14,724 nucleotides of DNA from an uncultured Campylobacter sp. GTDB lineage: Bacteria; Campylobacterota; Campylobacteria; Campylobacterales; Campylobacteraceae. The DNA lies in assembly GCA_905373295.1 (NCBI GenBank), contig CAJPSJ010000016.1, positions 1 through 14,724 on the forward strand, written 5' to 3'. This document shows, piece by piece, positions 921 to 14,259 of the stretch. Every line of letters starts with the position of its first letter. Position 1 is the stretch's first letter. The position numbers were made by a program, and so were the translations under genes. Below the pieces are notes generated by a model. That model was not told the origin of the DNA and searched no databases. It saw nothing but the letters and a program-made list of their open reading frames with translations.

Positions 921-2132
921 ATGGCAAGATACGCCCAGATCGACAAAAGAGCCCCTATTAAATCCGGCGGCGATAAGCTTCGCAGATTCCTAGCCCGCAC
1001 CTTTAACGGCGAGCTTTTCGTGGGGCTGTGGGTCGTTTTGCGAAATATGTTTAAGCGCGGCGGCTCGCACACGCTTCGATATCCTATGGAAAAATTTGTC
1101 ATGCCGCCTAGATACCGTGGCGTGCACAAGCTTATGCGCCTGCTTGAAAGCGGCAGCGAACGCTGCATCGGATGCGGTTTGTGCGAGAAGATCTGCGTGG
1201 CAAACTGCATCGCGATGGAGACCAGCCTCGGCAGCGACGGCCGCAAAAAGGTAGATAACTACTCGATAAATTTAGGGCGCTGCGTCTACTGCGGGCTTTG
1301 CTCGGACGTCTGCCCCGAGATCGCTATCGTGCATGGCTGCGAATATGAGCTTGCGAGCGAACAGCGCGCGTATTACGGCTTTAAAGAGGATCTTTTGATT
1401 CGCGGCGAAAATTTATGTTTAAACGGCGCGGCGCAGGAGTTTGCAGGCTACGGCAGCCTGGATGAAAACGCAGGCGCGCGGATCAAGGTGACGCCGAACG
1501 CTTATATAAAAAGCGACGCCGCAAGCGATGAGCTAAGCTTGAAGAGCGCGGATTCAAATTTAAAAAGCAGCGCCGCGGAAAGCTCCAAAAAAGAGGGCGC
1601 CGCTAGCGATAAAATTCTATTTTCAAAGGGCGCGGGCTTAAGCGGCGAAATTTTAGCCGAGCGGCAAGACGTCGGGCGGGCAAGCTTAAAGGAAAGCTCC
1701 GCCGCGGACGCCGAAAATTCTAAAGAAAATTCCGTTACGGACGCTCAAAATTCCGCGCCTGATTCGCAGCGAAATTCCAAAGAAAATCCCGTCTCTCAAA
1801 GCGCCGAAGATTCCGCTACGGATAGTAAAAATTTGGCGGAGAATTCTAAAGAAAATTTCGCTTCTCAAAGCGCCGAAGATTCCGCCACTCAAAGTAAAAA
1901 TTTTAAAGATAATTCGGTTGCGCCGCACATCGAGAATTCTGTCGGTGAGCTTGCTACGAACGACGATTCTGCGGAAAAATCTAAAGAAAATTCCGCCATG
2001 CAAGACTCGGGGAGCTCCGCCGCGCGAGGTAAAAAATCTAAGGCAAATTCCAAAAAGAATTCCGCCGCGGACGTCGAGAATTCTACGCAAAGCTCCGCGC
2101 CGGATTCCGCTGTGCAGGGGGAGGAGCAATGA
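921..2132 (+). CDS. nuoI: Complex I iron-sulfur subunit I with long low-complexity C-terminal tail
   Basis: Two-[4Fe-4S] ferredoxin-like subunit that carries electrons through the peripheral arm (centres N6a and N6b) toward quinone. ATG 921 follows GGAGGG at 911–916. The first cluster motif uses Cys82, 85, 88 and 92 (C92 is followed by Val rather than the common Pro). The second uses Cys121, 124, 127 and 131, in CVYCGLCSDVCP. The recognisable protein ends near residue 197. Residues ~198–403 are a hydrophilic tail of Ser, Ala, Asn, Lys, Glu and Asp with repeated SKEN and ENS words, predicted disordered and cytoplasmic. E. coli NuoI is 180 residues, so this protein is about twice the usual size. 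No frameshift or stop interrupts the tail. Its last codons carry the ribosome site of nuoJ, and the stop overlaps the nuoJ start (ATGA, 2129–2132). The ferredoxin domain is certain; the role of the tail is unknown. Confidence 0.96.
   Translation: MARYAQIDKRAPIKSGGDKLRRFLARTFNGELFVGLWVVLRNMFKRGGSHTLRYPMEKFVMPPRYRGVHKLMRLLESGSERCIGCGLCEKICVANCIAMETSLGSDGRKKVDNYSINLGRCVYCGLCSDVCPEIAIVHGCEYELASEQRAYYGFKEDLLIRGENLCLNGAAQEFAGYGSLDENAGARIKVTPNAYIKSDAASDELSLKSADSNLKSSAAESSKKEGAASDKILFSKGAGLSGEILAERQDVGRASLKESSAADAENSKENSVTDAQNSAPDSQRNSKENPVSQSAEDSATDSKNLAENSKENFASQSAEDSATQSKNFKDNSVAPHIENSVGELATNDDSAEKSKENSAMQDSGSSAARGKKSKANSKKNSAADVENSTQSSAPDSAVQGEEQ
1773..1910 (+). repeat. 69-bp tandem duplication inside nuoI tail
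   Basis: Two adjacent 69-base copies, 1773–1841 and 1842–1910, encode two 23-residue units that both begin NSKEN, share SQSAEDSAT in the middle and then SKN. A 23-base stretch is identical in both copies (1794–1816 and 1863–1885); the ends have diverged by substitutions. The exact in-frame length points to duplication after the tail already existed. Confidence 0.85.
2117..2125 (+). promoter_or_regulatory. Ribosome binding site of nuoJ inside nuoI tail
   Basis: GGGGGAGGA lies four bases before the nuoJ ATG at 2129 and within the final codons of nuoI. With the ATGA overlap this implies translational coupling, so ribosomes must read the whole repetitive tail before nuoJ is initiated. Confidence 0.75.
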
Positions 2133-2656
2133 TACAAACGCTTGCATTTTATTTTTTCAGCGCGGTTTGCCTGGCGCTTTTCGGCATCAGCGTTTTTAGC
2201 AAAAACGTCCTTTACGCCCTTAGCGCGCTGGCCGGCGGCATGGTCTTTATGAGCGGATTTTTCTTTTTGCTGGATGCGGAGTTTTTGGGCGTAGTGCAGA
2301 TCATAGTCTACACTGGCGCCGTGATCGTGCTTTACGGCTTCGCGCTGATGTTTTTGGGTGCAGATAAAAACGTAAGCGAGCCGAAAAAGGGGGCAAGGCT
2401 ATTTTTTGCGCTTAGCGGCGTGATTGCATTTTTGCTCGTGATTATCGTGCTCGGCGCGGTGGTCGCAAACAACGTAGAAACGCTTAAAATTTTAAACACC
2501 GACGATACCGAGGCGCTTGGGATGATTATTTTTACGAAATATCTGGCGATTTTCGAGCTTGCCGCCGTGATGCTGCTCGTGGCGATGATCTGCGCTATCG
2601 TGCTTGCGCATAAGCAGATGGACGCGAGCCTGAGCTACGAAGAGAGCGAGGGGTAA
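2129..2656 (+). CDS. nuoJ: Complex I membrane subunit J
   Basis: Small membrane subunit (175 residues) of the complex I proton-pumping arm, lying between NuoH and NuoK. About five membrane helices are visible, at roughly residues 4–22, 28–48, 53–76, 90–111 and 136–160. The third contains VVQIIVYTGAVIVLYGFALM, the signature of the family, with Tyr61 in the place of the Tyr near the pi-bulge that is thought to link quinone reduction to pumping. The start overlaps the nuoI stop by four bases and is served by a strong purine-rich ribosome site. The stop at 2654–2656 is one base before the nuoK start. Length is normal and no inserts are present, in contrast to NuoI. Confidence 0.96.
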   Translation: MIQTLAFYFFSAVCLALFGISVFSKNVLYALSALAGGMVFMSGFFFLLDAEFLGVVQIIVYTGAVIVLYGFALMFLGADKNVSEPKKGARLFFALSGVIAFLLVIIVLGAVVANNVETLKILNTDDTEALGMIIFTKYLAIFELAAVMLLVAMICAIVLAHKQMDASLSYEESEG

Positions 2657-2657
2657 A

Positions 2658-2981
2658 ATGGGTCTAAATCACTATCTAATCGTCGCTGCGATGATGTTTG
2701 GGCTCGGGCTTGCGGGTATGATGAAGCGAAGAAATTTGATAATGCTCTTTTTTTCGAGCGAAATTTTATTAAACGCCGCAAATTTAGCCCTCGTAGCCGT
2801 GGCGAAATTTTACGACAACATAAACGGCGAAATTTTTGCGCTTTTCATCGTCGCGATCGCCGCGAGCGAGATGGCCGTGGGGCTTGGGCTGCTCATCTTG
2901 TGGTATAAGAAAACGGGCAGCATCGAACTTGACAGCTTCGTAAATTTTAAAAATCCTTCCAAGGACGGGCCGGATGCTTGA
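2658..2981 (+). CDS. nuoK: Complex I membrane subunit K
   Basis: MrpC/NuoK-like subunit, 107 residues with three membrane helices, part of the proton path between NuoJ and NuoN. Glu35 (in SSEILLNAANL) and Glu71 (in AASEMAVGLGL) match the two membrane glutamates of E. coli NuoK, Glu36 and Glu72, which are needed for pumping. ATG 2658 follows GCGAGGGG with one base between it and the nuoJ stop. The 3' end overlaps the nuoL start by eight bases (2974–2981). A short polar C-terminal extension is the only difference from the usual ~100-residue form. Confidence 0.96.
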   Translation: MGLNHYLIVAAMMFGLGLAGMMKRRNLIMLFFSSEILLNAANLALVAVAKFYDNINGEIFALFIVAIAASEMAVGLGLLILWYKKTGSIELDSFVNFKNPSKDGPDA

Positions 2982-4821
2982 TACCGTTTTTGTATGGCTC
3001 TTAATCGCCCTTTTCGCACCGCTTGCCTCGGCGATCTTCGCAGGCGTTTTCATTCGCGCCAAAGATAAGATGTTTATTGGCGTAGTCTGCTCGGCGCTGG
3101 TGATTTTAAGCACTATTGCGTCGCTTGCTTTGATGGAGCTCGTCTCTGACAACCGCCTAATCAGCGTAAATTTAGCCGATTTCATAAGCACGGGATTTTT
3201 GGACGCAAAATTTAGCTTTCTCATAGATAGCGTAAGTGCGGTGATGATGGTGGTCGTAGGCATCGTATCCAGCGTCGTGCACGTGTATTCGATCTACTAT
3301 ATGTGGGATGATGAAAATTTCTCTAAATTTTTCAGCTTCCTGGGGCTTTTCGTATTTTCGATGCTGGTTTTGGTAACAAGCGATAATTTTTTAGGACTTT
3401 TTATCGGCTGGGAAGGGGTCGGACTCTGCTCATGGCTGCTAATAGGCTTTTGGTATGATAGGAGCAATTACAGCTGGTGCGCCAATGAAGCTTTCATAAT
3501 GAACCGCATCGCAGACCTTGGGATGTTGCTTGGAATTTTTCTAATATATTTAAATTTCGGCTCGTTGCGCTACGAGGTGGTATTTGCGAACGCAGCGGGC
3601 TTGGAGCCTGAAATTTTAACTCTGATCGCAGCACTTTTATTTATCGGCGCGATGGGCAAAAGCGCGCAGTTTCCGTTTCATACATGGCTTGCCGACGCGA
3701 TGGCGGGTCCTACGCCCGTCTCCGCGCTCATTCACGCAGCGACGATGGTTACGGCGGGCGTTTATCTGGTAATCCGCGCAAACGCGATTTTCGCGCTCGC
3801 GCCAGAAGTAAGCGGCTTTATCGTCTGCTTGGGCGCCTTTGTGGCGGTCTTTGCGGCGTCGATGGCGCTGGTTCATAACGATCTTAAAAAGATCATCGCC
3901 TACTCCACGCTTTCGCAGCTTGGCTATATGTTCGTAGCCGCGGGGCTCGGGGCGTATTGGATCGCGCTATTTCATCTGGCGACGCACGCGTTTTTCAAAG
4001 CGCTTCTATTTTTGGGAGCGGGCAACGTAATGCACGCGATGAAAGACGATCTAAATATCCAAAATATGGGCGGATTATATAAGTTTATGCGGCCTACGGC
4101 GATTTTGATGTGCATAGGCTCGCTCGCGCTTTGCGGATTTTATCCGTTCGCGGGCTTTTTCTCAAAAGATAAAATTTTAGAAGCGGCGTGGAGCGCGGAC
4201 GCGTATTTTATCTGGGCGTTGCTGTTTGCGGGCGCTGCGATGACGACATTTTACAGCGTACGACTAATAATGCTTGTGTTTTTCGGCAAGCAAAATTTTA
4301 CCCACCATCCGCACGAGGCGAAAGGCTTTGCCCTTATCGCAATGGGCGTATTAGCCGTGCCTGCGGTGATAGCGGGCTTTTTCGAGCACGATTTTGCGGA
4401 GTTCGTGCTTAGCATATTGCCGGGATTTAAAATTTCGATCCCGCACGGCGTGGAGGTAATTTTGATCGCCATAACGCTAGCGATGATAAGTGCGGTGGCG
4501 ATCGGCACGATTTGGACATACGGCAAGGGTAAATTTAGCCAAAATTTAAAGAACTGCAAATTTTATAAAATTTTGATCGCTCAGTATTTTATCCCGCAAA
4601 TTTACGAGCGCGTGATCGTGCGCGGATACGCCAAGCTTAGCGAGATCTGTGCTAAATGCGACGGCGCGATCATAGACGCCAGTGTCGATCTGATCGCTCG
4701 CATCGCGGTAAAAGGCGGCGAAGGTGCGGATCGCGCAAGCAATAGCGGAGATTTGAGCGCAAATTTAAGGTGGATGGTTTTGGGATCTTTCATTTTGCTG
4801 ATTTTGGCGTTTGCGCTGTGA
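2974..4821 (+). CDS. nuoL: Complex I antiporter-like subunit L
   Basis: Distal antiporter-like proton-pumping subunit of complex I (615 residues, normal length). Key charged residues in the membrane are present: Glu147 in GWEGVGLCSWLLIGF, Lys229 before AQFPFHTWLADAM, Lys342 in HAFFKALLFLGAG and Lys398 in FAGFFSKDK. They correspond to E. coli Glu144, Lys229, Lys342 and Lys399. The C-terminal ~130 residues fit the lateral amphipathic helix and the last membrane helix that clamp the arm. The segment 4531–4605, coding the linker KFSQNLKNCKF and what follows, has five AAATTT words in about 75 bases. ATG 2974 lies inside nuoK (8-base overlap), which argues for coupling. The stop TGA at 4819–4821 touches the ribosome site of nuoM. 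Confidence 0.97.
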   Translation: MLDTVFVWLLIALFAPLASAIFAGVFIRAKDKMFIGVVCSALVILSTIASLALMELVSDNRLISVNLADFISTGFLDAKFSFLIDSVSAVMMVVVGIVSSVVHVYSIYYMWDDENFSKFFSFLGLFVFSMLVLVTSDNFLGLFIGWEGVGLCSWLLIGFWYDRSNYSWCANEAFIMNRIADLGMLLGIFLIYLNFGSLRYEVVFANAAGLEPEILTLIAALLFIGAMGKSAQFPFHTWLADAMAGPTPVSALIHAATMVTAGVYLVIRANAIFALAPEVSGFIVCLGAFVAVFAASMALVHNDLKKIIAYSTLSQLGYMFVAAGLGAYWIALFHLATHAFFKALLFLGAGNVMHAMKDDLNIQNMGGLYKFMRPTAILMCIGSLALCGFYPFAGFFSKDKILEAAWSADAYFIWALLFAGAAMTTFYSVRLIMLVFFGKQNFTHHPHEAKGFALIAMGVLAVPAVIAGFFEHDFAEFVLSILPGFKISIPHGVEVILIAITLAMISAVAIGTIWTYGKGKFSQNLKNCKFYKILIAQYFIPQIYERVIVRGYAKLSEICAKCDGAIIDASVDLIARIAVKGGEGADRASNSGDLSANLRWMVLGSFILLILAFAL

Positions 4822-4828
4822 GGTGGGC

Positions 4829-6358
4829 ATGGAATACTTTTTAAGTTTGGTTATATTTTTTCCGGCGGTAGCTGCGGTTTTGGGCTTTTTGATCGACGAA
4901 GCGAGCATTAAGACCTACGCCGTTACGATGAGCTTTATAGAGTTCGTGCTTTCGCTTGTTTTGTGGATACTCTACGAGCCGGTGGACGGCATCGCGTTTA
5001 GCGTGCTGCACCCTTTCATAAGCGAATACGGCATCAGCTACTTCATCGGCGTGGACGGAATTTCGCTGTTTTTGGTGATCCTAAGCACGCTGGTTACATT
5101 TTTGGCGCTGCTTAGCCTAAGTATCAAAGAGCGCGCCAAAAATTTAATCATCTGCATTTTGTTTTTAGAGATGACGATGGTGGGCGTTTTCGTGGCGCTG
5201 GATGCGATTTTGTTTTACATCTTTTGGGAGCTTTCGCTAATTCCAATGCTCTACATCATCGGCGCGTGGGGCAGCGGCAAGAGAATTTACGCCGCGGTGA
5301 AATTTTTCATCTACACCTTTCTAGGTTCGATGTTTCTACTCGTAGGACTCGTAGCGATGAGCTATTTCTATCACGAGGCTACGGGCGAGTATAGCTTTAA
5401 TATCCTAAACTGGCAGAGCTTATCGCTGCCGCTTAGCACGCAAATTCCTCTATTTTTGGCATTTTCGGTCGCTTTTGCGATCAAGACGCCTTGCTTTCCT
5501 TTTCATACCTGGCTTCCGTACGCGCACGGGCAGGCCCCTACGATAGGCTCGGTTCTGCTTGCCGCGGTGCTTCTTAAGATGGGCACCTACGGCTTTGTGC
5601 GATTTTCGCTGCCGCTATTTCCCGACGCGAGCGTGCATTTTAGTGGGATGATGTGCGCCGTAGCGATCGTTATGATCATCTATGCAAGCTTCATCGCCTT
5701 TGCGCAGAAGGATATAAAGCAGGTTATCGCGTATAGCTCGATCGCGCATATGGGCGTCATAATGCTTGGAATTTTTTCAATGAGTCGCGAAGGAATGAGC
5801 GGTGCGGTATTTTTGATGATAAGCCACGGTATCGTAAGCGGCGGGCTTTTTATGCTCGTAGGCTTTTTATACGACCGCAAGCATACGAAGCTTTTCAGCG
5901 AGTTCGGCGGGCTTGCGCGGGTGATGCCGCTTTATGCGTTTTGCTTTTGCGTCGTGCTGCTAGGCTCGATAGGACTTCCGCTTACGATCGGCTTTGTGGG
6001 AGAATTCTTAAGCCTTGCGGGGATTTTTAAAATAAGCTTTAGCTATGCGCTTTTGGGCGGACTCGGCATCATAATGGGCGCGATCTATTCGATGAATCTT
6101 TATAAAAAGACCTTCTTCGGCGCGCTCTTGCATGAGGAGAATAAAAAGCTAAGCGATCTAAACAGAACCGAGCTTTGCTCTATCATCCCGATCTGCGCGC
6201 TGGTAGTGGCGCTGGGCGTCGCGCCGAATTTGATGCTAAAGAGTATCGAGCCCAGCGTGACGCAAAGCCTTGAGCTGATGTTTAACAAAGCCTCTCAAAC
6301 CGCGACTCGCGCCTATATGGAAAAAGCAAATTTTAAGGTAAGAAGCGATGCAAAATAA
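4829..6358 (+). CDS. nuoM: Complex I antiporter-like subunit M
   Basis: Middle antiporter-like proton-pumping subunit, 509 residues from ATG 4829. This start is preferred over the upstream in-frame TTG at 4811 because AGGTGGG (4821–4827) lies just before it and the protein then begins MEYFLSLVIFFP, a normal first membrane helix. Essential membrane residues are visible: Glu134 in FWELSLIPM, Lys219 before TPCFPFHTWLP, Lys250 in LLKMGTYGF and Glu392 in FVGEFLSL. They match E. coli Glu144, Lys234, Lys265 and Glu407. The overlap with nuoN is 11 bases (6348–6358). There is no insertion in this protein, unlike its paralogue NuoN. Confidence 0.96.
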   Translation: MEYFLSLVIFFPAVAAVLGFLIDEASIKTYAVTMSFIEFVLSLVLWILYEPVDGIAFSVLHPFISEYGISYFIGVDGISLFLVILSTLVTFLALLSLSIKERAKNLIICILFLEMTMVGVFVALDAILFYIFWELSLIPMLYIIGAWGSGKRIYAAVKFFIYTFLGSMFLLVGLVAMSYFYHEATGEYSFNILNWQSLSLPLSTQIPLFLAFSVAFAIKTPCFPFHTWLPYAHGQAPTIGSVLLAAVLLKMGTYGFVRFSLPLFPDASVHFSGMMCAVAIVMIIYASFIAFAQKDIKQVIAYSSIAHMGVIMLGIFSMSREGMSGAVFLMISHGIVSGGLFMLVGFLYDRKHTKLFSEFGGLARVMPLYAFCFCVVLLGSIGLPLTIGFVGEFLSLAGIFKISFSYALLGGLGIIMGAIYSMNLYKKTFFGALLHEENKKLSDLNRTELCSIIPICALVVALGVAPNLMLKSIEPSVTQSLELMFNKASQTATRAYMEKANFKVRSDAK

Positions 6359-8153
6359 TCTTTTAAATTTAGCCTCGATCGCGCCTATGGCGATACTCGG
6401 AGGATTTGCCCTGCTGATGCTCGCGGTTTCGCTTTTTGCGCGCACGCTATCGTATAAATTTTACGCCGTCATTACGATACTAGCACTAGCTCTCGGCTTT
6501 GGGCTCGTTTTTGGTTACAACAGCGGCATACGTGGGCTTTTTGACGTGATGCTAGTGGACGGAATCGCGACGCTATCGATGCTTATCATGCTCGCAGGCT
6601 CGATATTTTTCATCTTTCTATCTTTGGGTGCAAGAAGCGCGCACGAGTACCACACCGCGGAGTTTTTCGTGCTGTTTTTATTCGTGCTCGTGGGGTATGA
6701 GTTTATGGTCGCGAGCGAAAGCTTAATGATGATCCTCGTGGGACTTGAGACGGGCTCGCTGGCGCTTTATACGCTAATCGCTCTTCACAACCGCGCCAGA
6801 TCAATCGAAGCGGCGCTAAAATACTTCATAATGGGTGCGCTGGGATCGGGGTTTTTCGCATTCGGTGCGGCGATGTTTTTTCTATCGACCGGCTCTATGG
6901 AAATTTCAAACATCGCGCAGATCGCCAAGAGTTCAAATTTACAAACCAATGTCTTGCTTTTCGCCGCCTGCTCATTTATGATCGTCTCGATAGGATTTAA
7001 GCTCTCGCTGATCCCGTTTCACACCTGGACGCCCGACGTTTACGATGGCGCGAGCTCGGCTATGGCGGGCTTTTTGTCCGTCGTGCCCAAGATCGCGGGC
7101 TTTGTCGTGGCGATCAGGCTATTTGAAGCGCTGCAAAGCATCGGCGTGCAGTGGCTAAACATCGTGCTCTACGCCGTAGCGGTGCTTACGATGAGCTTAG
7201 CGAACCTCATGGCGCTCGTACAGCGCGACGTCAAGCGGATGCTCGCTTTCAGCTCCATTTCGCACGCAGGCTTCGTGCTCTGCGCGATCGTGATCGGCTC
7301 GACGCAGGCAAACGCCGCACTTTTCACCTACTGGATCCTATATGCCGTCGCAAACCTCGGTGCGTTTGCGTTCATCTGGTGCGTGCGGCAAAGGCGCGCT
7401 CGCTCGTTAAATTTAAAATTTAAAACCCAAAGTTCCGCTTTAAATTTAAATGCAAACGGCGAGGGGAGTGAGAGCTTTATCTCAAACGCAAAGCCCGCTT
7501 TTTCGCAAAATCACGAGCCGAGCTCTGCCGGCAAGTTAAATTTAGGCGCGAGCGGACAAATTTCAGCCTGCGACGAGTGGAATTTTAAAGCGAGCGAGCA
7601 GAATTTTAAAGTAGGCGAGCAGAATTCCAAAGAAAACGAGCAAAATTTTAAAGCGAGCGAGCCCGGCGCGGAAGCGACCCTTTTTGGCACTGAAACTTGC
7701 GAGCCCGGCGCCGAAACTTTCGAGCAAAGCTCTAAATTTACAGCTCGCTTCGAGCATCCGTTTGAGAAATTTGACGGGCTGATCCGCACCCATCCGCTTT
7801 TTGCGCTATGCGCGGCGATCTTTATGCTCTCGCTTGCGGGCATTCCGCCGTTTAGCGTGTTTTGGGGCAAGATGTATCTGCTAAGCGCCGCGGTCAATTC
7901 TGGCTACTTTGCTCTCGCCGTCATCATGGCGGTAAATAGCGCGCTCGCGCTGTATTACTACCTGCGCCTCATCGTGCGTATGTTTTTGCATGAGCCGCAG
8001 GAGGACGCGGAGCTTGACGGCTCGCTGGGAGCGGTCTCGGTGCAGATAAAATTTGCCGTCGTGCTAGCTAGCGTGGCGTGCGTGCTGGCGCCGTTTTTAG
8101 TGAAATTCCTAACCGGCGCGGTAAATAATTTCGTCTTCTTAAGCGGGTATTGA
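6348..8153 (+). CDS. nuoN: Complex I antiporter-like subunit N with ~116-residue loop insertion
   Basis: Proximal antiporter-like proton-pumping subunit. ATG 6348 lies inside nuoM, with AAGG at 6335–6338 as a probable ribosome site. Expected membrane residues are present: Glu134 in VGLETGSLAL, Lys218 in GFKLSLIPFHTW, Lys248 in VVPKIAGF and Lys508 in FWGKMYLL. The protein has 601 residues against 485 in E. coli. The surplus is residues ~351–466, between the helix ending GAFAFIWCV and the one beginning HPLFALCAA. These correspond to TM11 and TM12, so the loop should face the cytoplasm (inference from the family topology). The insert is polar, ends abruptly on both sides, keeps frame, and contains a four-copy seven-residue repeat. 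Removing it leaves a protein of normal length with all helices, so function is probably kept. Confidence 0.95.
   Translation: MQNNLLNLASIAPMAILGGFALLMLAVSLFARTLSYKFYAVITILALALGFGLVFGYNSGIRGLFDVMLVDGIATLSMLIMLAGSIFFIFLSLGARSAHEYHTAEFFVLFLFVLVGYEFMVASESLMMILVGLETGSLALYTLIALHNRARSIEAALKYFIMGALGSGFFAFGAAMFFLSTGSMEISNIAQIAKSSNLQTNVLLFAACSFMIVSIGFKLSLIPFHTWTPDVYDGASSAMAGFLSVVPKIAGFVVAIRLFEALQSIGVQWLNIVLYAVAVLTMSLANLMALVQRDVKRMLAFSSISHAGFVLCAIVIGSTQANAALFTYWILYAVANLGAFAFIWCVRQRRARSLNLKFKTQSSALNLNANGEGSESFISNAKPAFSQNHEPSSAGKLNLGASGQISACDEWNFKASEQNFKVGEQNSKENEQNFKASEPGAEATLFGTETCEPGAETFEQSSKFTARFEHPFEKFDGLIRTHPLFALCAAIFMLSLAGIPPFSVFWGKMYLLSAAVNSGYFALAVIMAVNSALALYYYLRLIVRMFLHEPQEDAELDGSLGAVSVQIKFAVVLASVACVLAPFLVKFLTGAVNNFVFLSGY
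7398..7745 (+). repeat. Low-complexity, RAATTY-rich insertion in nuoN
   Basis: In-frame insert encoding residues ~351–466. It begins with closely spaced AAATTT words (7409, 7416, 7442) and ends near the AAATTT at 7734–7739. By reading it contains ten RAATTY hexamers in 348 bases; the remaining ~1.46 kb of nuoN contains seven. Asn, Lys, Glu, Ser and Ala dominate. The word AATTCCAAAGAAAA at 7623–7636 also occurs at 1773–1786 in the nuoI tail, coding NSKE in both. Confidence 0.87.
7581..7664 (+). repeat. Four tandem 21-bp units in nuoN insertion
   Basis: Four adjacent 21-base units encode NFKASEQ, NFKVGEQ, NSKENEQ and NFKASEP (residues 412–439). A RAATTY hexamer straddles the start of each unit, at 7580, 7601, 7622 and 7643, so the sites are spaced exactly 21 bases, or two helical turns. 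A further EPGAE word recurs at residues 438–442 and 452–456 just after the array. Confidence 0.9.
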
Positions 8154-8177
8154 GAGCTGTTTTTTTAAGGGAATGAG

Positions 8178-9995
8178 ATGAAAAATTTCAAAGAGTGGCT
8201 AGATGATTTAAAATCAAGAGGGTTCATAGGTAAAGATGTAGAGCTTGCCAATATCGCGGAACATATTGATGAGGAAAATGGAAAATACATTATTAAAAAT
8301 TTTTATGGCCCTCGCGCAATAGATCGCGTATTGAATTTAACTAAGATTATTTGCAAGCTTGAGGTAGAATTCCAAAATTGTGATTTTAGTAATCTATGTA
8401 TATCGGGAACTATAGAGCAAAAAATAAGTTTTATCGGTTGTAAATTTAACGAAGCGGTTTCATTTGAAAATTCTAAATTTAAAAAATGCGTTTCGTTTGA
8501 GAAAACCGAATTTAACAGCATTGTTGACTTCTCAAATTGCATATTTGAAAAACAGGTAAATTTCGATAACTCTGACGAGAAAGAATATACAAAACCAATA
8601 AATTTTTCTAATGTTATATTCCAAGATAACGCTTATTTTAATAATATCGTATTTAATAATCGTGCGGACTTCCATGGGGCTATATTTAAAAAAATAGCAT
8701 CTTTTTATGGCGTGCGATTTAAAGACTTTGTAAATTTTTCCGCCACTATATTTGAGGGGGATTTAAATTTAGTAAATTCTAAACTGGACTTTGAATATGA
8801 AGATTTGAAGAAAGCTATAACCAAAGCTGCAGAAAATAGCTCGATTAAAGAGGTGGCGAATGATTTCCGCGATAGTTTTAGGGTTTTAAAAAATATCGTA
8901 ACTAAAACAGGGAATCATCTTGAGGCTATAAGGTATCGCGTTTCCGAATTGTATTGTAAGGAGATAGAGCTAGAGGACGATCTTAAAGATAAAGAATCTA
9001 AAGATCCTGCAAGAAAAAATATTAAAAATTTTATAGATTTAATGCTATTAAAACTTTATCGCGTTACGAGCGATCATCATTCAAATCTCGTAAAGATCAT
9101 TAATTTTGCCGTCACTATCGTAGTGTTTTATGGGCTCTTAAATTGGTTTTTCCCTCGTTTGTATGTATGTTTGGAAGTCTGTTTGGAAAAAAGGGAGTTT
9201 TGCTTACAAGATCTGTTATTTTTTATTACTTTTATCTTTACAGCAGTTATGTTTGCAATTTGGATTATAAGGGCGGCCGCTCAAAGGTGGAAAAGTCTCG
9301 TAATTGTCCTAATACTTCCAATTTTTCTTATTGCTATGCTTCAACCTATGTCCAGATCTTTTTTACACTATTCATTTATGTCAGAATTAAATGATATCCT
9401 TAATACCGCAGGTGTATTTATTCTTATATTTTTGTTCCTTATTTGCGGATATACCTATATCTCTGAAAAGATGGGGTATGTAATTTCTTACGTTTTTCAT
9501 ATTTTTCTCTATGTTTGCTTTATAGTGTTTTTATTAATTAGGCCGGAACTTTTTAATCCATTTAGCGGGATATTTCAAAGCACAAAAATAGAGCCCGATA
9601 AATTTAGAAATTATGTATTAGAAAACAATGAAAGTGCACCAAAGGAAATTTTAGATTTAATAGAGACTAATAGCAGCAAAAATAAGGATTATAATATCAA
9701 ATTGATTTCCGATCATCGTCTTAAAATTTTAAAGAAAATAGATAGTATAAATGATCAATCAAAGCCCAAAGCAAGATCAAATGTATTCAGTTATTTTTGC
9801 CCTTCTGCATATTTAGAAGAATCTAAAAATGATAAAAAATATGTGCAAATTTATAACATTCTTTTGGATGACGAAATTTCGGAAATATCTAAAAAAATAT
9901 CAAAAGCGGGTTATTTGGTTTATACTTTTATTATGCTTTTGGTTATTTACTCTCTTACAAAAACGGCGCGTCGCAACTCCATCGTACCTAGTTAA
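8178..9995 (+). CDS. Pentapeptide-repeat membrane protein, AT-rich, function unknown
   Basis: 605 residues from ATG 8178, with AAGGG at 8167–8171. Residues ~62–200 form a run of pentapeptide repeats in ten-residue steps with Phe at the core, for example SFIGCKF, SFENSKF, DFSNCIF, DFHGAIF and NFSATIF. This predicts a right-handed beta solenoid with about 12–14 coils' worth of repeats. Residues ~225–265 (DSFRVLKNI ... EAIRYRVSELYCKEIEL) resemble a helical connector that often follows such repeats in membrane-bound members. Five hydrophobic helices follow (about 307–325, 345–364, 372–390, 409–427, 433–454), then a polar domain of ~120 residues and a last helix (578–594). No enzyme motif and no potassium-channel filter were found. 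Spot GC counts of 18–37 % per line set it apart from its neighbours, suggesting acquisition. It may be cotranscribed with nuo, but this is not shown. Confidence 0.85.
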   Translation: MKNFKEWLDDLKSRGFIGKDVELANIAEHIDEENGKYIIKNFYGPRAIDRVLNLTKIICKLEVEFQNCDFSNLCISGTIEQKISFIGCKFNEAVSFENSKFKKCVSFEKTEFNSIVDFSNCIFEKQVNFDNSDEKEYTKPINFSNVIFQDNAYFNNIVFNNRADFHGAIFKKIASFYGVRFKDFVNFSATIFEGDLNLVNSKLDFEYEDLKKAITKAAENSSIKEVANDFRDSFRVLKNIVTKTGNHLEAIRYRVSELYCKEIELEDDLKDKESKDPARKNIKNFIDLMLLKLYRVTSDHHSNLVKIINFAVTIVVFYGLLNWFFPRLYVCLEVCLEKREFCLQDLLFFITFIFTAVMFAIWIIRAAAQRWKSLVIVLILPIFLIAMLQPMSRSFLHYSFMSELNDILNTAGVFILIFLFLICGYTYISEKMGYVISYVFHIFLYVCFIVFLLIRPELFNPFSGIFQSTKIEPDKFRNYVLENNESAPKEILDLIETNSSKNKDYNIKLISDHRLKILKKIDSINDQSKPKARSNVFSYFCPSAYLEESKNDKKYVQIYNILLDDEISEISKKISKAGYLVYTFIMLLVIYSLTKTARRNSIVPS

Positions 9996-10009
9996 ACAGC
10001 ATAGATCTT

Positions 10010-10915
10010 TCAAATCTCGCGGCGAAGGAGCTTTAAAATTTCACGCTCCAGCTCTTGCGGCGGCGCCGAAATTTTATCCGCGAACTGCGAGCGGTTGAAG
10101 GTGCGCTGGCGCTTTGCAAGCTGTACCGTGTGCAGGCTTACGAGCTGCTCGCACTGCGCCCGCGAGATCTGCCCGCGCAAAAGCTGCCCGCACTCCTTTA
10201 GCCCGATGCAGCCTAGCGCCCTGCACTCCGCACCGTAGCGAGCGAATAAAAACTCCGCTTCCTCCAAAAGCCCGCGCTCAAACATCGCCTTCGTGCGCGC
10301 CTCGATACGTCCTGCAAGCCACTGCTTGGGCGCGTCGATCTCAAAAATTTTAATATCCGAAATCACGGGCGGGGCGGTTTTTTCGCGCAGAAATTTACTC
10401 GGCGCCTCGCCGCAAAATTTATAGATGCTTAGCCATTTTCTTAACCGAAAGCTGTCCGCTGCGCTAAGCTTTGCGGCAAATTCCGGATCGATCCGCTGCG
10501 CTAGAGCGCAAATTTCATCGTTTGAAATTTCACTTTTAAAATCGGGAACCTTCGGCGCCAGCCCGCTTAACATCGCCTTTAGATAAAATCCGCTGCCGCC
10601 CGTGATTATCAAAGGCGCGCCGCTACGCTCTGCAAAAGCCCGCGCGGCTGCGTATTCTTTGATAAACCCGCCGACGCTGAAGTACTCGTTTGGATAGATT
10701 AAATTTACGCCGAAGTGCCTGATCTCGCGCAGCTGCTCCTCGCTTGGCTTAGCGCTTGCGATGTCGATTTGCCGGTAAATGCAGAGCGAATCGAGGCTTA
10801 AAATCACGGCGCCGATTTCTCGCGCGATACTTAGCGCAAGATCGCTTTTGCCGCTTGCTGTGGTGCCGATGATCGCGATCTGCGGGCTTGCGTGCGAGTT
10901 TTGATTTTGGTTCAA
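10010..10915 (-). CDS. miaA: tRNA dimethylallyltransferase
   Basis: Adds a dimethylallyl group to N6 of A37 in tRNAs that read UNN codons. With a TTG start at 10915 the protein has 301 residues, normal for the family. It shows the P-loop GTTASGKS (residues 17–24), the [16 protein letters not shown] motif (from Asp42), [11 protein letters not shown] (106–116), CIGLKE (236–241) and AKRQRTF (267–273), which covers the usual tRNA-binding signature. The longer reading from TTG 10945 is rejected because a TATAAT box on the same strand (10951–10946) would leave almost no room for a leader. AAAAGGA six to eight bases before TTG 10915 fits a ribosome site. The gene is convergent with the pentapeptide gene (14-base gap, no clear terminator) and divergent from the prenyltransferase gene. 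Confidence 0.94.
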
Positions 10916-10945
10916 GGCGTTTCCTTTTGTAAATTTTTCGTTCAA

Positions 10946-10951
10946 ATTATA
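10946..10951 (-). promoter_or_regulatory. Probable miaA -10 box
   Basis: On the minus strand the sequence reads TATAAT, preceded by AAATTTGA. A start about seven bases downstream would give a leader of roughly 20–25 bases to the TTG at 10915. No convincing -35 box is seen, which is usual for Campylobacter sigma-70 promoters. Confidence 0.55.
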
Positions 10952-10973
10952 TCAAATTTAGAGCTATTCTTAC

Positions 10974-10989
10974 TTTTTTTTGATACAAT
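10974..10989 (+). promoter_or_regulatory. Probable promoter of the prenyltransferase gene
   Basis: A run of eight T (10974–10981) precedes TACAAT (10984–10989), the T-rich plus -10 arrangement typical of Campylobacter promoters. It is followed by AAGGGG at 11002–11007 and ATG at 11012, giving a short leader. The region is divergent with the miaA promoter about 30 bases away. Confidence 0.5.
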
Positions 10990-11011
10990 GGTGCCCAAAA
11001 TAAGGGGCGAA

Positions 11012-11881
11012 ATGGCTAAATTTAAAGAAATTTTATCCGATATCAACGAATTAATAGTTTTTAAACACTCGGTTTTCGCGCTACCGTTTATCTTTACGGC
11101 GATGATTACTGCAAGCAAGCTGCAAAACGGCTCGGTATGGTTCGGCTGGAAATTGCTTTTTTTGGGGATTTTATGTGCGGTGAGCGCGAGAAGCTTCGCG
11201 ATGGCGCTAAATCGTTACTTGGACGAGGATATCGACCGCGCCAATCCGCGCTGCGCCTCGCGCCCTAGCGTGGACGGACGGATCGGACGCGGGAATTTGC
11301 TGCTTTTCATCATCGCAAACGCGGTGGTTTTCATAGCGGTTTCGGCGTTTATAAATCCTTTGGCGTTTAAGCTTTCGGTGCCGATTTTAGCGGCATTGGG
11401 TGGGTATTCGTATTTTAAGCGCTTTAGCGAGACCGCACATTTGATGCTAGGCTTTTGCTTGGGGCTTGCGCCGATTGCGGGCGCGATCGCCGTTAGCGGC
11501 ACAATTCCGCTATGGTCGGCGCTGCTATGCCTCGGGGTAGTATTTTGGGTGGGCGGCTTTGATGTGCTGTATTCGCTTCAAGATATGGAATTTGACCGCA
11601 CGGCAGGGCTTTACAGCATCCCTGCGCTTTACGGCAAGGAAGCGTCGATGTTTATCTCCAAAATTTTTCACGCCGTGGCGGTGCTTTTTTGGCTGTTGTT
11701 TTGCGCGGCGGCAAATTTAGGCTTTTTTGCCTATCTTGGCGTGGCTGCGTGCGCGACGATTTTGTACTTCGAGCATAGGATCGTGCGTAACGATTTTAGC
11801 AAGATCGATCGCGCGTTTTTTACGCTTAACGGCTACTTGGGCATTGCGTTTTTCGCTTTTATTTTTGTAAATTTATTTTAA
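11012..11881 (+). CDS. mqnP: UbiA-family prenyltransferase, probably menaquinone biosynthesis MqnP
   Basis: Integral membrane prenyltransferase of 289 residues. ATG 11012 is chosen over the longer open frame from 10892 because AAGGGG precedes it, a promoter lies just upstream, and the longer start would overlap miaA. The first Asp-rich motif is NRYLDEDID (Asn67, Asp71, Asp75), followed by RANPRCASRP. The second is DVLYSLQDMEFD (Asp184 to Asp195), followed by the GLYSIP motif. About eight to nine hydrophobic helices are visible. In Campylobacterota, which make menaquinone by the futalosine route and have no ubiquinone, the likely reaction is prenylation of a dihydroxynaphthoate (MqnP); the older label is 4-hydroxybenzoate polyprenyltransferase. 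The product would serve as electron acceptor for the complex I encoded upstream. Family is certain, substrate is inferred. Confidence 0.88.
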   Translation: MAKFKEILSDINELIVFKHSVFALPFIFTAMITASKLQNGSVWFGWKLLFLGILCAVSARSFAMALNRYLDEDIDRANPRCASRPSVDGRIGRGNLLLFIIANAVVFIAVSAFINPLAFKLSVPILAALGGYSYFKRFSETAHLMLGFCLGLAPIAGAIAVSGTIPLWSALLCLGVVFWVGGFDVLYSLQDMEFDRTAGLYSIPALYGKEASMFISKIFHAVAVLFWLLFCAAANLGFFAYLGVAACATILYFEHRIVRNDFSKIDRAFFTLNGYLGIAFFAFIFVNLF

Positions 11882-11891
11882 GGAACCCCCT

Positions 11892-12251
11892 ATGGATCTT
11901 AACACTATCATCATTTTAGGACTTTGCGTCGTTATATTTTTGATGTTTTTCGTCATATATTTTAAGGATAAGCAAGCGGATAAAAAATTCGAGCGATTTG
12001 ATCAGGTATTGACCGATGCTATGCAGGAAAACTATCTGCTTAAAAAGAAGGTCGAGGAGCTAAAAGAGATGATCGATTCGGGCGGTAAAGTCGCTCCCAA
12101 TATCGATATAAACGCGATTGCAGACGTAATCGACGAGACAATAGAGCAGAGACTAGATGTAGTGCCTACGATGATCGACGAGCGGGTAGAAAAGCAGATC
12201 AGACCGCTTCTGGATCGGCTTAAAGAGCTCATCGGCTCGGTAAGAAAATAG
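11892..12251 (+). CDS. Small membrane-anchored coiled-coil protein, unknown function
   Basis: 119 residues from ATG 11892. AAGGA (11880–11884) overlaps the stop of the prenyltransferase gene, so the two are probably cotranscribed and coupled. Residues ~5–24 (TIIILGLCVVIFLMFFVIYF) form one membrane helix near the N-end. Residues ~25–62 are charged and heptad-like (FERFDQVLTDAM, LLKKKVEELKEMI), predicting a coiled coil. The C-terminal half is again helical, with many Ile, Asp and Glu (INAIADVIDETIEQ). I do not recognise the family. The architecture suits a small scaffold or partner of a membrane protein; no catalytic motif is present. Base composition is like its neighbours. Confidence 0.85.
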   Translation: MDLNTIIILGLCVVIFLMFFVIYFKDKQADKKFERFDQVLTDAMQENYLLKKKVEELKEMIDSGGKVAPNIDINAIADVIDETIEQRLDVVPTMIDERVEKQIRPLLDRLKELIGSVRK

Positions 12252-12291
12252 CCGGAGCAATATAAAAATAAAATTTTGCAAAATCGCTTTG

Positions 12292-12304
12292 TTTTTTATA
12301 TAAT
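12292..12304 (+). promoter_or_regulatory. Probable promoter of moaA–queE–queD
   Basis: A T-rich stretch ends in a perfect TATAAT (12299–12304). The moaA ATG is at 12332 with AAGG at 12322–12325. The 80-base gap before moaA, unlike the overlaps that follow, makes this the likely start of a three-gene transcript. Confidence 0.65.
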
Positions 12305-12331
12305 CACCGCAAATTGATATTAAGGCAAAAT

Positions 12332-13297
12332 ATGCTAATTGATAAATTTGGACGAACGATCGATTATTTGCGCATTTCGGTTACGCAGCGGTGTAATTTC
12401 AGATGCAGATATTGCATGCCGAGCACGCCGTTTAACTGGGTGCCGCGAGAGAATATTTTAAGCTTTGAGGAGATGTTTTTATTCGTCAAGGTCGCGATCG
12501 ACGGCGGCGTAAAAAAGATCCGTATAACCGGCGGCGAACCGCTGGTGCGAAAAGGGATCGAAGATTTTATAAAGATGATTGCGGATTATGCTCCGGACAT
12601 CGATCTTGCGCTTACTACCAACGGATATTATCTCAAAAACTACGCGCGCGCCTTGAAAAACGCGGGGCTAAAACGCATCAATATGTCGCTTGACTCGCTG
12701 CGTCCGGAGCGAGCTAAATTTATAGCTCAGTGCGGCGTGCTTTATAACGTCTTAGAGGGTCTTGACGCCGCGCTTGAAGCGGGACTAAAGGTCAAGCTAA
12801 ATACCGTAGCGCTAAAGGGGATCAACGACGACGAGCTGATCTATTTGCTGGAATTTGCCCGCGAGAAGGATTGTCAGATCCGCTTCATAGAATTTATGGA
12901 AAATACCCATGCCGGCGATCTTACAGGCTTAAAATCAAACGAAATTTTAGATATTTTAAGGCGTAAATTTATCTTTACCGCTCTGCCGAAATCGCAAAGC
13001 TCGCCCGCGTCGCTTTATGCGCTTGGAGACGGCTACACCTTCGGCATCATCGATCCGCACAAGCACGATTTTTGTGAGAGCTGCAATCGCATCAGATTAA
13101 GTGCCGAGGGGCTTTTGATCCCATGTCTTTACTTCGAGGACGCGCTAAGTATCAAAAAGGCGGTCAAAGAGGGCGACATCGCTGCAGCCGCCGAAATTTT
13201 GGCTAAAATTTTAGCGAATAAGCCCGAAAAAAACCGCTGGCAAACGGACGCTTCGAATGAAATTTCAAGCCGCGCATTTTACGAGACGGGCGGATGA
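12332..13297 (+). CDS. moaA: GTP 3',8-cyclase (molybdenum cofactor, radical SAM)
   Basis: Converts GTP to 3',8-cyclo-GTP, the first step of molybdenum cofactor synthesis. It has 321 residues from ATG 12332; the in-frame TTG at 12314 is less likely because the ribosome site (AAGG at 12322–12325) lies downstream of it. The radical SAM cluster is bound by Cys21, Cys25 and Cys28 (CNFRCRYC), and ITGGEP lies at 65–70. The second, substrate-binding cluster uses Cys248, Cys251 and Cys265 in [13 protein letters not shown] and CLY. The protein ends in Gly-Gly, as MoaA proteins do; that tail is needed for catalysis. C. jejuni is remembered to have more than one moaA-like gene, so this may be one of two. 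The stop overlaps the queE start (ATGA, 13294–13297). Confidence 0.93.
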
Positions 13298-14259
13298 GGC
13301 TCGTAGAGAGCTTTTTAAGTATCCAGGGCGAGGGCAAATACGCAGGCAGACTCGCGTTTTTCTTTCGCTTTTCAGGCTGTAATCTGCGCTGCGAGGGCTT
13401 CGGCGGCGAGCGCGTTTCGCCAAAGACCGGCGAGATCTTGCGCGGTTGCGATACGATCCGCGCGGTTTTTACAAATCACTTCGAGCACGAAGAAATTTTA
13501 AATTTAGCGCAGCTTTTGAATAAAATTCCAAATTTATCAGGTTTGTCCTGTTCCGCACCCGCATGCTCTGCGCCGGGTTTTTGCGCCGCGGAGTCTTTTT
13601 CTGAAAGCGATACGTTAAATTCCGCCGCCGCACAAACGCCTCCTCGTCCAAACGGTAACGCAGAAAAATCTTTAAATTTAACGAGCGAGAATTCTTTAAA
13701 TTTCGCGGCACAAAATTCCTCAAATTTAAATCCGCAAAGCTCCGTTTCGCCGCAAATGGCTAAGCTTCATCAAAAGCCGATCATCGTTATCACCGGCGGC
13801 GAGCCGATGTTGCATCACAAAGAGGCGCTATTTTACGAGTTCGTCTGCGAGATGCTCGCGCGCGGACATGCGGTGCACTTCGAAACCAACGGTACGATTT
13901 TAGTGGATTTTGAAAAATTTCCCGCCTACAAAAGCTGCGTCTTTGCGGTCTCGCCTAAGCTTTCAAACTCCGCTGAGCCGCGTGAACGCAGGTTAAACTT
14001 CGCCGCGCTGCGAAGCTTAAAACAAAACGCGAAGGATAGCTTTTACAAGTTCGTCATCTCGCCCGAGTTTGACGCGCAGCCCGAGATCAGAGAAATTTTA
14101 GCGACGTGCGATGGCGAGGTTTATTGTATGCCGCGCGGCGCAGATCGTCGCGAGCTGGAAAGCGCCGCGCAATTTTGCGTGGATTTTTGCCTAAAAAACG
14201 GCTATAATTACTCCGATCGCCTGCATATTAGAATTTGGGGCGAGAAGGACGGGGTATGA
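13294..14259 (+). CDS. queE: 7-carboxy-7-deazaguanine synthase with low-complexity insertion
   Basis: Radical SAM enzyme that turns 6-carboxy-tetrahydropterin into 7-carboxy-7-deazaguanine on the way to preQ0 and queuosine. The start overlaps the moaA stop. The N-end [27 protein letters not shown] is typical of the family in its QGEG and SGCN words. The cluster cysteines appear to be Cys29, Cys33 and Cys52, a CX3CX18C spacing instead of the classic CX3CX2C; Cys52 is followed by the usual Asp-Thr. TGGEP lies at 167–171 and FETNGT at 196–201. Residues ~79–156 are a polar low-complexity loop between a helix and the strand IIVITGGEP. Without it the protein would be about 243 residues, close to normal. 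The loop keeps frame and lies away from the conserved motifs, so activity is probably preserved. The stop overlaps the queD start. Confidence 0.92.
13523..13761 (+). repeat. Low-complexity, RAATTY-rich insertion in queE
   Basis: In-frame segment encoding residues ~79–156 (with its left edge just before), rich in Ser, Asn, Ala, Pro and Leu. By reading it holds eight RAATTY hexamers, at 13523, 13530, 13617, 13674, 13689, 13698, 13713 and 13722. Seven are in the same codon phase (Asn-Ser, Asn-Leu, Asn-Phe) as in the nuoI and nuoN regions. The last five are spaced 15, 9, 15 and 9 bases, a 24-base period. The rest of queE has five such sites. Confidence 0.85.

Follow-up and report, generated by a model that had tools for sequence, protein, structure and literature searches.

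RAATTY-dense segments in nuoI, nuoN, and queE

The stretch studied here (hereafter the window) covers 14,724 bases of contig CAJPSJ010000016.1 from an uncultured Campylobacter sp. It contains nuoH-nuoN, a 605-amino-acid (aa) AT-rich gene, miaA, a ubiA-like gene, moaA, queE, and queD, as we read the gene names. Three of these genes, nuoI, nuoN, and queE, carry a long in-frame segment crowded with the hexamer RAATTY (R, purine; Y, pyrimidine). Pfam was run on NuoI, NuoN, QueE, and the product of the 605-aa gene. The genes and their segments are as follows.

921..2132, + strand: nuoI, 403 aa; the ferredoxin domain matches lie within the first 136 residues; named NuoI in several database records
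1512..2117, + strand: C-terminal tail of nuoI (aa 198-399); 16 RAATTY sites, 14 of them in the frame xxR AAT TYx (Asn-Ser/Phe/Leu)
6348..8153, + strand: nuoN (name by our reading), 601 aa; Proton_antipo_M match, best stretch 123-354
7398..7748, + strand: loop of nuoN (aa 351-467); 10 RAATTY sites, four of them in 21-base steps
13294..14259, + strand: queE, 321 aa; Fer4_12 match at 159-238; named QueE in two database records
13519..13758, + strand: loop of queE (aa 76-155); 8 RAATTY sites with 15/9 spacing

Within each gene, the word is much denser in the segment than outside it. For instance, there were 16 sites in the 606-base tail of nuoI and 3 in its other 606 bases, 10 in the 351-base loop of nuoN and 7 in the other 1455 bases, and 8 in the 240-base loop of queE and 5 in the other 726 bases. 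An earlier note on this DNA had reported these counts together with a dominant codon phase, and our recount agrees with both (14/16 sites in nuoI, 7/10 in nuoN, and 7/8 in queE). The spacings that it described were seen again: 21-base steps in nuoN (7580/7601/7622/7643), 15/9/15/9 in queE (13674-13722), and steps of 12, 21, and also 24 bases in nuoI. In addition, Tandem Repeats Finder (TRF) reported four arrays inside the segments (1773-1903, 7409-7425, 7580-7662, and 13660-13729).

The nearest genome compared, G053, is a 2,281,652-base contig whose NuoN is 94% identical to that of the window. Its counterparts of the three segments, in open reading frames (ORFs) 284, 289, and 295, are largely gapped in alignments with the orthologues of a relative, G009, and most matches of NuoN align only outside residues ~350-462. 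These results agree with the note's statement that the segments are missing from well-known homologues. Protein homologue searches were made for QueE and NuoI. Meanwhile, a megablast search of nuoI against phages gave no match.

The density exceeds what is obtained by shuffling. After codon-order shuffling, the mean numbers of RAATTY were 1.73 (nuoI), 1.68 (nuoN), and 1.42 (queE), and the observed numbers were reached in 0/5000 runs for each gene. After synonymous shuffling inside the insert, the means were 8.92, 5.96, and 5.29, and the observed numbers were reached in 0, 4, and 30 of 5000 runs, respectively. The whole window has 134 sites against 53.5 expected (standard deviation 6.4; largest value 70 among 200 shuffles). 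The control hexamers gave a divided answer. YAATTR and RTTAAY, which the note had proposed, and AATATT and RATATY had 0 sites in all three inserts, but TTTAAA was raised: 2, 7, and 3 sites in nuoI, nuoN, and queE, compared with 0.36, 0.75, and 0.36 after codon-order shuffling and 1.15, 4.49, and 1.23 after synonymous shuffling.

Insertions defined by alignment

Between 800 kb of G053 and 840 kb of G009 there were 271 reciprocal best pairs, of which 39 were dropped before counting and 232 (identity of at least 45%) were aligned. We counted as insertions those inserts and C-terminal tails that were 12 residues or longer, leaving out N-terminal extensions and any gap with a residue opposite. This gave 55 insertions in 25 genes of G053 and 10 in 7 genes of G009, so that about a tenth of the orthologous pairs (25/232) include a G053 protein with an insertion. 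The counterparts of the window genes (ORFs 284, 289, and 295) are among the 55.

The G053 insertions total 8583 bases with a GC content of 0.502 and contain 198 RAATTY sites, or 23.1/kb. The remainder of these genes has 8.5/kb, and the paired genes taken together have 7.9/kb. In the insertions, YAATTR was absent and RTTAAY occurred at 0.12/kb. In G009, the corresponding values for RAATTY were 24.0/kb in insertions and 14.4/kb in the rest of the genes. Thus the coincidence of dense sites with in-frame inserts, about which the note had asked, reaches well beyond the window genes in G053, and it persists when insertions are identified by alignment alone. The 198 sites compare with 26.2 under codon-order shuffling (maximum 41), 127.3 under synonymous shuffling (maximum 140), and 58.5 under recoding with genome usage (maximum 73), each over 300 runs. 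They comprise 81 AAATTT, 96 AAATTC, and 21 GAATTC; GAATTC stands at its synonymous null (21 vs 21.8), and the remaining NAATTN classes do not clearly exceed theirs. Not every insert holds the word, and several of the G053 inserts lack it altogether.

Tandem arrays were found in only 9 of the 55 inserts, and outside the arrays RAATTY still occurs at 21.6/kb. Simple repeat expansion is therefore rejected as the origin of the density, and with an insert GC content of 0.50 the duller explanation that the note had offered, Asn-rich simple repeats in an AAATTT-rich genome, falls away. Flank identity between sites within one insert was 0.29-0.54 against a background of 0.285. We also rejected a shared mobile insert, because 58 inserts gave only 7 cross-gene pairs at E ≤ 1e-4, over 22-42 bases.

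DNA word and peptide

In the G053 inserts, codon choice follows the DNA word. For example, Ser codons of TCN and AGY type stand at 100:3 after Asn and at 147:150 elsewhere, and the ratio of AAT to AAC for Asn is 164:9 before codons starting with T and 48:31 before others. Furthermore, the third place of four-fold codons is a purine in 69/80 cases before Asn and in 515/1199 cases elsewhere. Of the 254 insert Asn, 156 lie in RAATTY; this frame prevails with 156 of the 198 sites, and the other two frames hold 24 and 18.

Genome-wide analyses of G053 used 800 kb and 741 naive ORFs, each the longest open frame and at least 90 aa long; the gene sets are therefore approximate. Among these ORFs, runs of at least 4 sites in the same phase numbered 38 for Asn-Ser/Phe/Leu, 5 for Lys/Glu-Ile, and 5 for Lys/Glu-Phe, compared with 5.2, 0, and 2.4 expected under synonymous shuffling. 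Since codon choice tracks the word and arrays occur in all three frames, it is very probable that the DNA word shapes the protein and not the reverse. On the same two grounds, selection at the peptide level is disfavoured as the cause. The inserts look disordered, as judged on composition alone.

RAATTY across the G053 genome

In the 800 kb of G053, RAATTY occurs at 9.55/kb at a GC content of 0.464. The ORFs contain 5190 sites, compared with 1453 after codon-order and 2338 after synonymous shuffling (synonymous observed/expected ratio, o/e, 2.22), and the three codon phases are nearly equal (1775/1727/1688). When 2075 hexamer classes are ranked against synonymous shuffles, AAATTT comes out on top (3333 vs 1112, z 66.6). 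Among the ten NAATTN classes, those above expectation are AAATTT (3.0), AAATTC/GAATTT (1.6), and GAATTC (1.13), and the seven remaining classes are depleted (0.25-0.71). Between genes, RAATTY rises to 18.7/kb with an o/e of 3.44, compared with 0.39 for YAATTR, 0.31 for RTTAAY, and 2.30 for TTTAAA. Thus the word is over-represented beyond composition and codon usage, independently of frame and also between genes, as would be seen for an uptake word.

In addition, position -2 in the flanks of RAATTY is preferentially T and position +7 preferentially A (0.52 each in intergenic DNA of G053 and 0.41 in G009, vs 0.31 and 0.33 for RATATY). The spacing of AAATTT pairs in G053 peaks at about 24, 33, and 42 bases, with dips at about 17, 28, 38, and 50.

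A ctsM candidate and its distribution

A D12 enzyme has been assigned to RAATTY in strain IA3902 (PMC4294202, in the part available). According to the available text of PMC10046745, C. jejuni imports only DNA with CtsM methylation at RAm6ATTY; available parts of PMC8468864, where the motif is printed RATTY, and of PMC8627207 likewise describe methylation-dependent uptake. The accessible part of PMC8437040 places the demonstrated effect in C. jejuni only and lists the motif and CtsM as conserved in at least 4 species, none of them gracilis.

The note had suggested looking for a ctsM homologue, and a putative orthologue is present in G053 and in other relatives. The G053 candidate is a 373-aa D12-class adenine methyltransferase (PF02086, 61.3 bits) with a DPPY motif that is invariant across 10 aligned CtsM-like sequences, and it is 51-70% identical to the other nine. 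The comparison was made among relatives, none of which carries a named CtsM sequence; within it, the candidate is 51% identical to the gene after thrS-infC in G074. The order thrS-infC-ctsM is what we take to be that of C. jejuni. In G074 (L154 900-2547), the candidate follows thrS and infC by our reading, in a neighbourhood unlike that of G053, where it lies directly between a trpD-like gene and trpF, again by our reading (L158 3-3324). The gene read as trpF carries its own Asn-Phe/Ser array; Pfam gave no match on the 255-aa open piece of it.

At a threshold of E ≤ 1e-60, a probable CtsM was found in 130 of 150 family genomes, counting a split match in G114 and a partial one in G318. Based on genome sizes rounded to 100 kb, the median AAATTT density was 5.05/kb (1.33-8.21) in genomes with the gene and 1.56/kb (0.60-2.27) in those without it. 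TTTAAA also differs (3.20 vs 1.91), and the AAATTT/TTTAAA ratio is 1.65 vs 0.89. For 22 ctsM-bearing samples (13-800 kb, GC content 0.26-0.46), 18 have 6-14 RAATTY/kb, with G036, G091, G050, and G034 at 3.6-5.2, and five outgroup sets have 1.6-4.4. The coding o/e (synonymous) ranges from 0.93 (L176) to 2.80 in 18 ctsM-bearing sets. For C. portucalensis it is 1.59, and a further eight sets range over 0.78-1.21. In most of the ctsM-bearing genomes sampled besides G053, the enrichment is milder. The 20-kb stretches L176, L178, and L179, which have much sequence outside ORFs and a low RAATTY density, were retained in these figures.

Among 199 genomes of the order, 17 have a CtsM match above 580 bits, with AAATTT at 4.0-7.8/kb by our reading; the next genome, G143, has 3.85/kb, a small gap given the rounded sizes. 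G150 has a split, weaker match (321 bits) and a low AAATTT density. Meanwhile, in three genomes of the order sample (G224, G164, and G201), none of them in the family sample, AAATTT exceeds TTTAAA 7- to 11-fold (1021/93, 3560/482, and 865/118), and the D12 matches are only distant. This excess could be an independent case or could reflect avoidance of TTAA.

The arrays are lineage-bound. Runs of at least 4 sites, set against synonymous shuffles, numbered 48 in 800 kb of G053 (8.5 expected), 48 in 840 kb of G009 (12.5), and 3 in 200 kb of each of G101 and G107 (1.0 each). There were none in 80 kb of four genomes that we guess to belong to the thermophilic group.

RAATTY in foreign DNA

The 14 windows of G053 with the lowest RAATTY o/e (1.38-1.76, vs a median of 2.96) lie at 200-208, 212-228, 560-592, and 696-716 kb. 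They include two prophages, typed with PHROGs on 8 proteins over both. The prophage at ~217-224 kb encodes an integrase, a CI-like repressor, and a replication protein, and that at ~570-582 kb encodes terminase, portal, head, and baseplate proteins. The windows over the two prophages have an o/e of 1.38-1.92, which is depleted against the median but still above 1, so the word is sparser in this acquired DNA. A further low stretch near 704-712 kb is an apparent polysaccharide locus by our reading of its ORFs. The windows typed are a selection that leaves aside others with low values, such as those at 448, 484, and 508 kb; the o/e is above 1 in all.

In G053 C1, the low o/e at ~560-592 kb and 212-228 kb (L190, L191, L122, and L123) had flagged both prophages before they were typed. 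Thus RAATTY may mark foreign DNA in these genomes.

Natural variation in QueE and NuoI

We compared proteins, not DNA, in the best 120 of 7109 QueE matches and the best 120 of 294 NuoI matches; all variation results below refer to these matches, whose rows are related and not independent. The Asn of RAATTY is kept at 0.99 in the QueE insert and 0.95 in the NuoI tail, compared with 0.62 and 0.78 for other Asn there (n = 6 and 3 in QueE, 14 and 3 in NuoI). The residue after the motif Asn stays Ser, Phe, or Leu at 0.99 in QueE and 1.00 in NuoI, against 0.91 and 0.87 for other residues of this kind. Motif-coded residues differ from other insert residues in conservation with P = 0.00013 (QueE) and P = 0.015 (NuoI), values to be read with the relatedness of the rows in mind. 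Furthermore, of 177 changes after the motif Asn, 166 stay within Ser, Phe, and Leu and are compatible with RAATTY; 151 are Ser to Phe or Phe to Ser, which, with Ser encoded by TCN, corresponds to free exchange of C and T at the Y position.

Proposed origin of the arrays and alternative explanations

We lean towards the view that biased uptake of CtsM-methylated self DNA raises the frequency of RAATTY, most of all where protein constraint is weak. RAATTY would be the recognition word of CtsM, an orphan D12-class adenine methyltransferase. DNA richer in the methylated word would enter competent cells more readily and recombine into the chromosome, and alleles with more copies would be over-sampled, which amounts to a molecular drive. 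Where coding DNA is constrained, choice among synonymous codons would accommodate the word; where added residues are tolerated, arrays would accumulate and persist. The Asn-Ser/Phe, Lys-Ile, and Lys/Glu-Phe peptides would then be by-products of the DNA word. Molecular drive has been proposed for the uptake sequences of Haemophilus and Neisseria. The first link, methylation-dependent uptake, is established in C. jejuni only, and the drive is what we infer. The note's idea that clusters of the transformation word accumulate where the host's coding sequence tolerates them is partly supported: it passes the controls that could be run, with uptake as the presumed cause. We see an even chance for the more specific proposal that, in the gracilis-like lineage, biased uptake grew the arrays into insertions of 12-155 residues in whichever frame was open, with a sequence dictated by uptake and not by protein function.

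Several observations weigh against biased uptake. In our judgement, phylogeny confounds the link between ctsM presence and RAATTY density. Five ctsM-positive genomes (G021, G028, G034, G043, and G067) are as poor in AAATTT as the ctsM-negative ones; these are possible losses of uptake. ComEC, found in 150/150 family genomes including G053 and also in 10/14 control genomes, does not discriminate and was discarded as a marker. G101 (9.7/kb) and G107 (9.6/kb) match the overall RAATTY density of G053 yet have only the few runs given above, so density alone does not force arrays. In addition, TTTAAA is also enriched in G053 (1.94 coding and 2.30 intergenic), and 1149 of its 2005 copies overlap an AAATTT. 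GAATTC is barely enriched in coding DNA (1.13), and AAATTT is far above AAATTC (3.0 vs 1.6), which suggests that a preference for A-tracts may act alongside the R..Y rule. The pair spacing mixes a ~10-11 base phasing with codon spacing, and the uptake model needs no such phasing; helical phasing may have a part in it, though the peaks are also multiples of three. Between the window and G053 (12767/14724 bases aligned), AAATTT outside inserts is conserved at 0.873 and other AT-only hexamers at 0.896, so site conservation gives no clear support for selection. Furthermore, the motif Asn itself changes in 77 NuoI alignment cells (47 to Ser, 25 to Lys) and in 9 QueE cells, which breaks the word.

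One alternative is that the word is selected for another effect of CtsM methylation, such as chromosome organisation, expression, or nuclease protection. The R..Y specificity and the association with ctsM would suit any role of RAATTY methylation, and an orphan RAATTY methyltransferase is also reported in six Spirochaetaceae (PMC4752239, in the part available). However, the role demonstrated in the literature available to us is uptake in C. jejuni, the arrays lie in core-enzyme genes without evident regulatory logic, and the low density in mobile DNA resembles that of Neisseria uptake words, with which the accessible part of PMC7371117 agrees. We consider this alternative unlikely.

Another is that AAATTT is favoured by a DNA-binding protein, such as a nucleoid protein, or by the intrinsic curvature of A-tracts, and that CtsM is incidental. 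This would fit the lead of AAATTT over the other forms in the genome as a whole, the flank preference (T at -2, A at +7), the ~10-11 base phasing, and the abundance of AAAATT in inserts (127 vs 16.4). It fits poorly with the inserts, which hold no fewer AAATTC (96) than AAATTT (81) and show no clear enrichment of AAAAAA (18 vs 21.9 under codon order and 13.6 under recoding), and with the depletion of all seven AATT classes outside R..Y. To us it seems quite unlikely.

It is very improbable that the peptides are functional, as disordered linkers or binding segments, and that the DNA word merely follows from them. The QueE variants are indeed stable in length (317-322 aa) and their motif-coded residues are conserved, but synonymous choices track the DNA word, different peptides (N-S/F, K-I-L/S, and K/E-F) encode the same word, and the G009 orthologues lack most of the segments. 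Finally, hardly any credence can be given to composition only, that is, Asn/Ser-rich low-complexity expansion in an AAATTT-favouring genome: it could draw on the tandem arrays in 9 of 55 inserts and the four TRF arrays of the window, but it is contradicted by the failure of the codon-order, synonymous, and recoding nulls, the 100:3 split of Ser codons, the three-frame arrays, the density outside arrays, and the insert GC content.

Comparison with known systems

CtsM- and RAATTY-methylation-dependent uptake in C. jejuni was reportedly described by Beauchamp et al. in 2017. The present case is like it in the word and in the putative D12-class orthologue, but differs in that enrichment of the word here, at 47% GC, greatly exceeds what composition would give, and in that protein insertions carry it as in-frame arrays. 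The uptake signal sequences (USS) of Pasteurellaceae and the DNA uptake sequences (DUS) of Neisseriaceae are similar in that one short word is over-represented, denser between genes, and sparse in foreign DNA. RAATTY here reaches ~10 sites/kb, is methylation-dependent in C. jejuni, and lengthens proteins by arrays, whereas USS and DUS are of greater length, not palindromic, and much less frequent. Rickettsia palindromic elements also insert in frame into unrelated proteins; unlike them, there is no common mobile sequence here, and only the hexamer recurs beyond the 7 short cross-gene matches among 58 inserts.

Uptake words are already known as a kind; the papers searched gave no case of a methylation-dependent word at ~10/kb that builds in-frame protein arrays. 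The available parts of four papers on CtsM uptake (PMC10046745, PMC8468864, PMC8627207, and PMC8437040) make no mention of arrays, and a search of open-licence papers gave no report of RAATTY arrays in proteins. If biased uptake is the cause, a preference in DNA uptake would be strong enough to add segments to core enzymes. It would also account for a puzzling class of insertions rich in Asn and Ser in proteins of these Campylobacter and would caution against ascribing a protein function to them. Furthermore, drive and selected benefit of uptake words could be told apart in a natural series of species that have one word and differing array loads.

Other observations

The 605-aa gene (window 8178-9995), between nuoN and miaA, encodes a pentapeptide-repeat protein with hydrophobic stretches by our reading and has a GC content of 0.305. 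PADLOC gave no match to this protein. At this site G053 has a 206-aa ORF and no DNA alignment across it, a comparison made on DNA and not on proteins; thus the gene looks like a strain-specific AT-rich insertion. The RAATTY o/e was 1.49 in this stretch vs 2.93 and 2.59 in the rest of the window. In coding DNA of G053 (L112-L131 and L182-L201), GGCC-containing hexamers and some words of AAGATT/AGAAT type were strongly depleted, for example GCGGCC with 171 vs 605.

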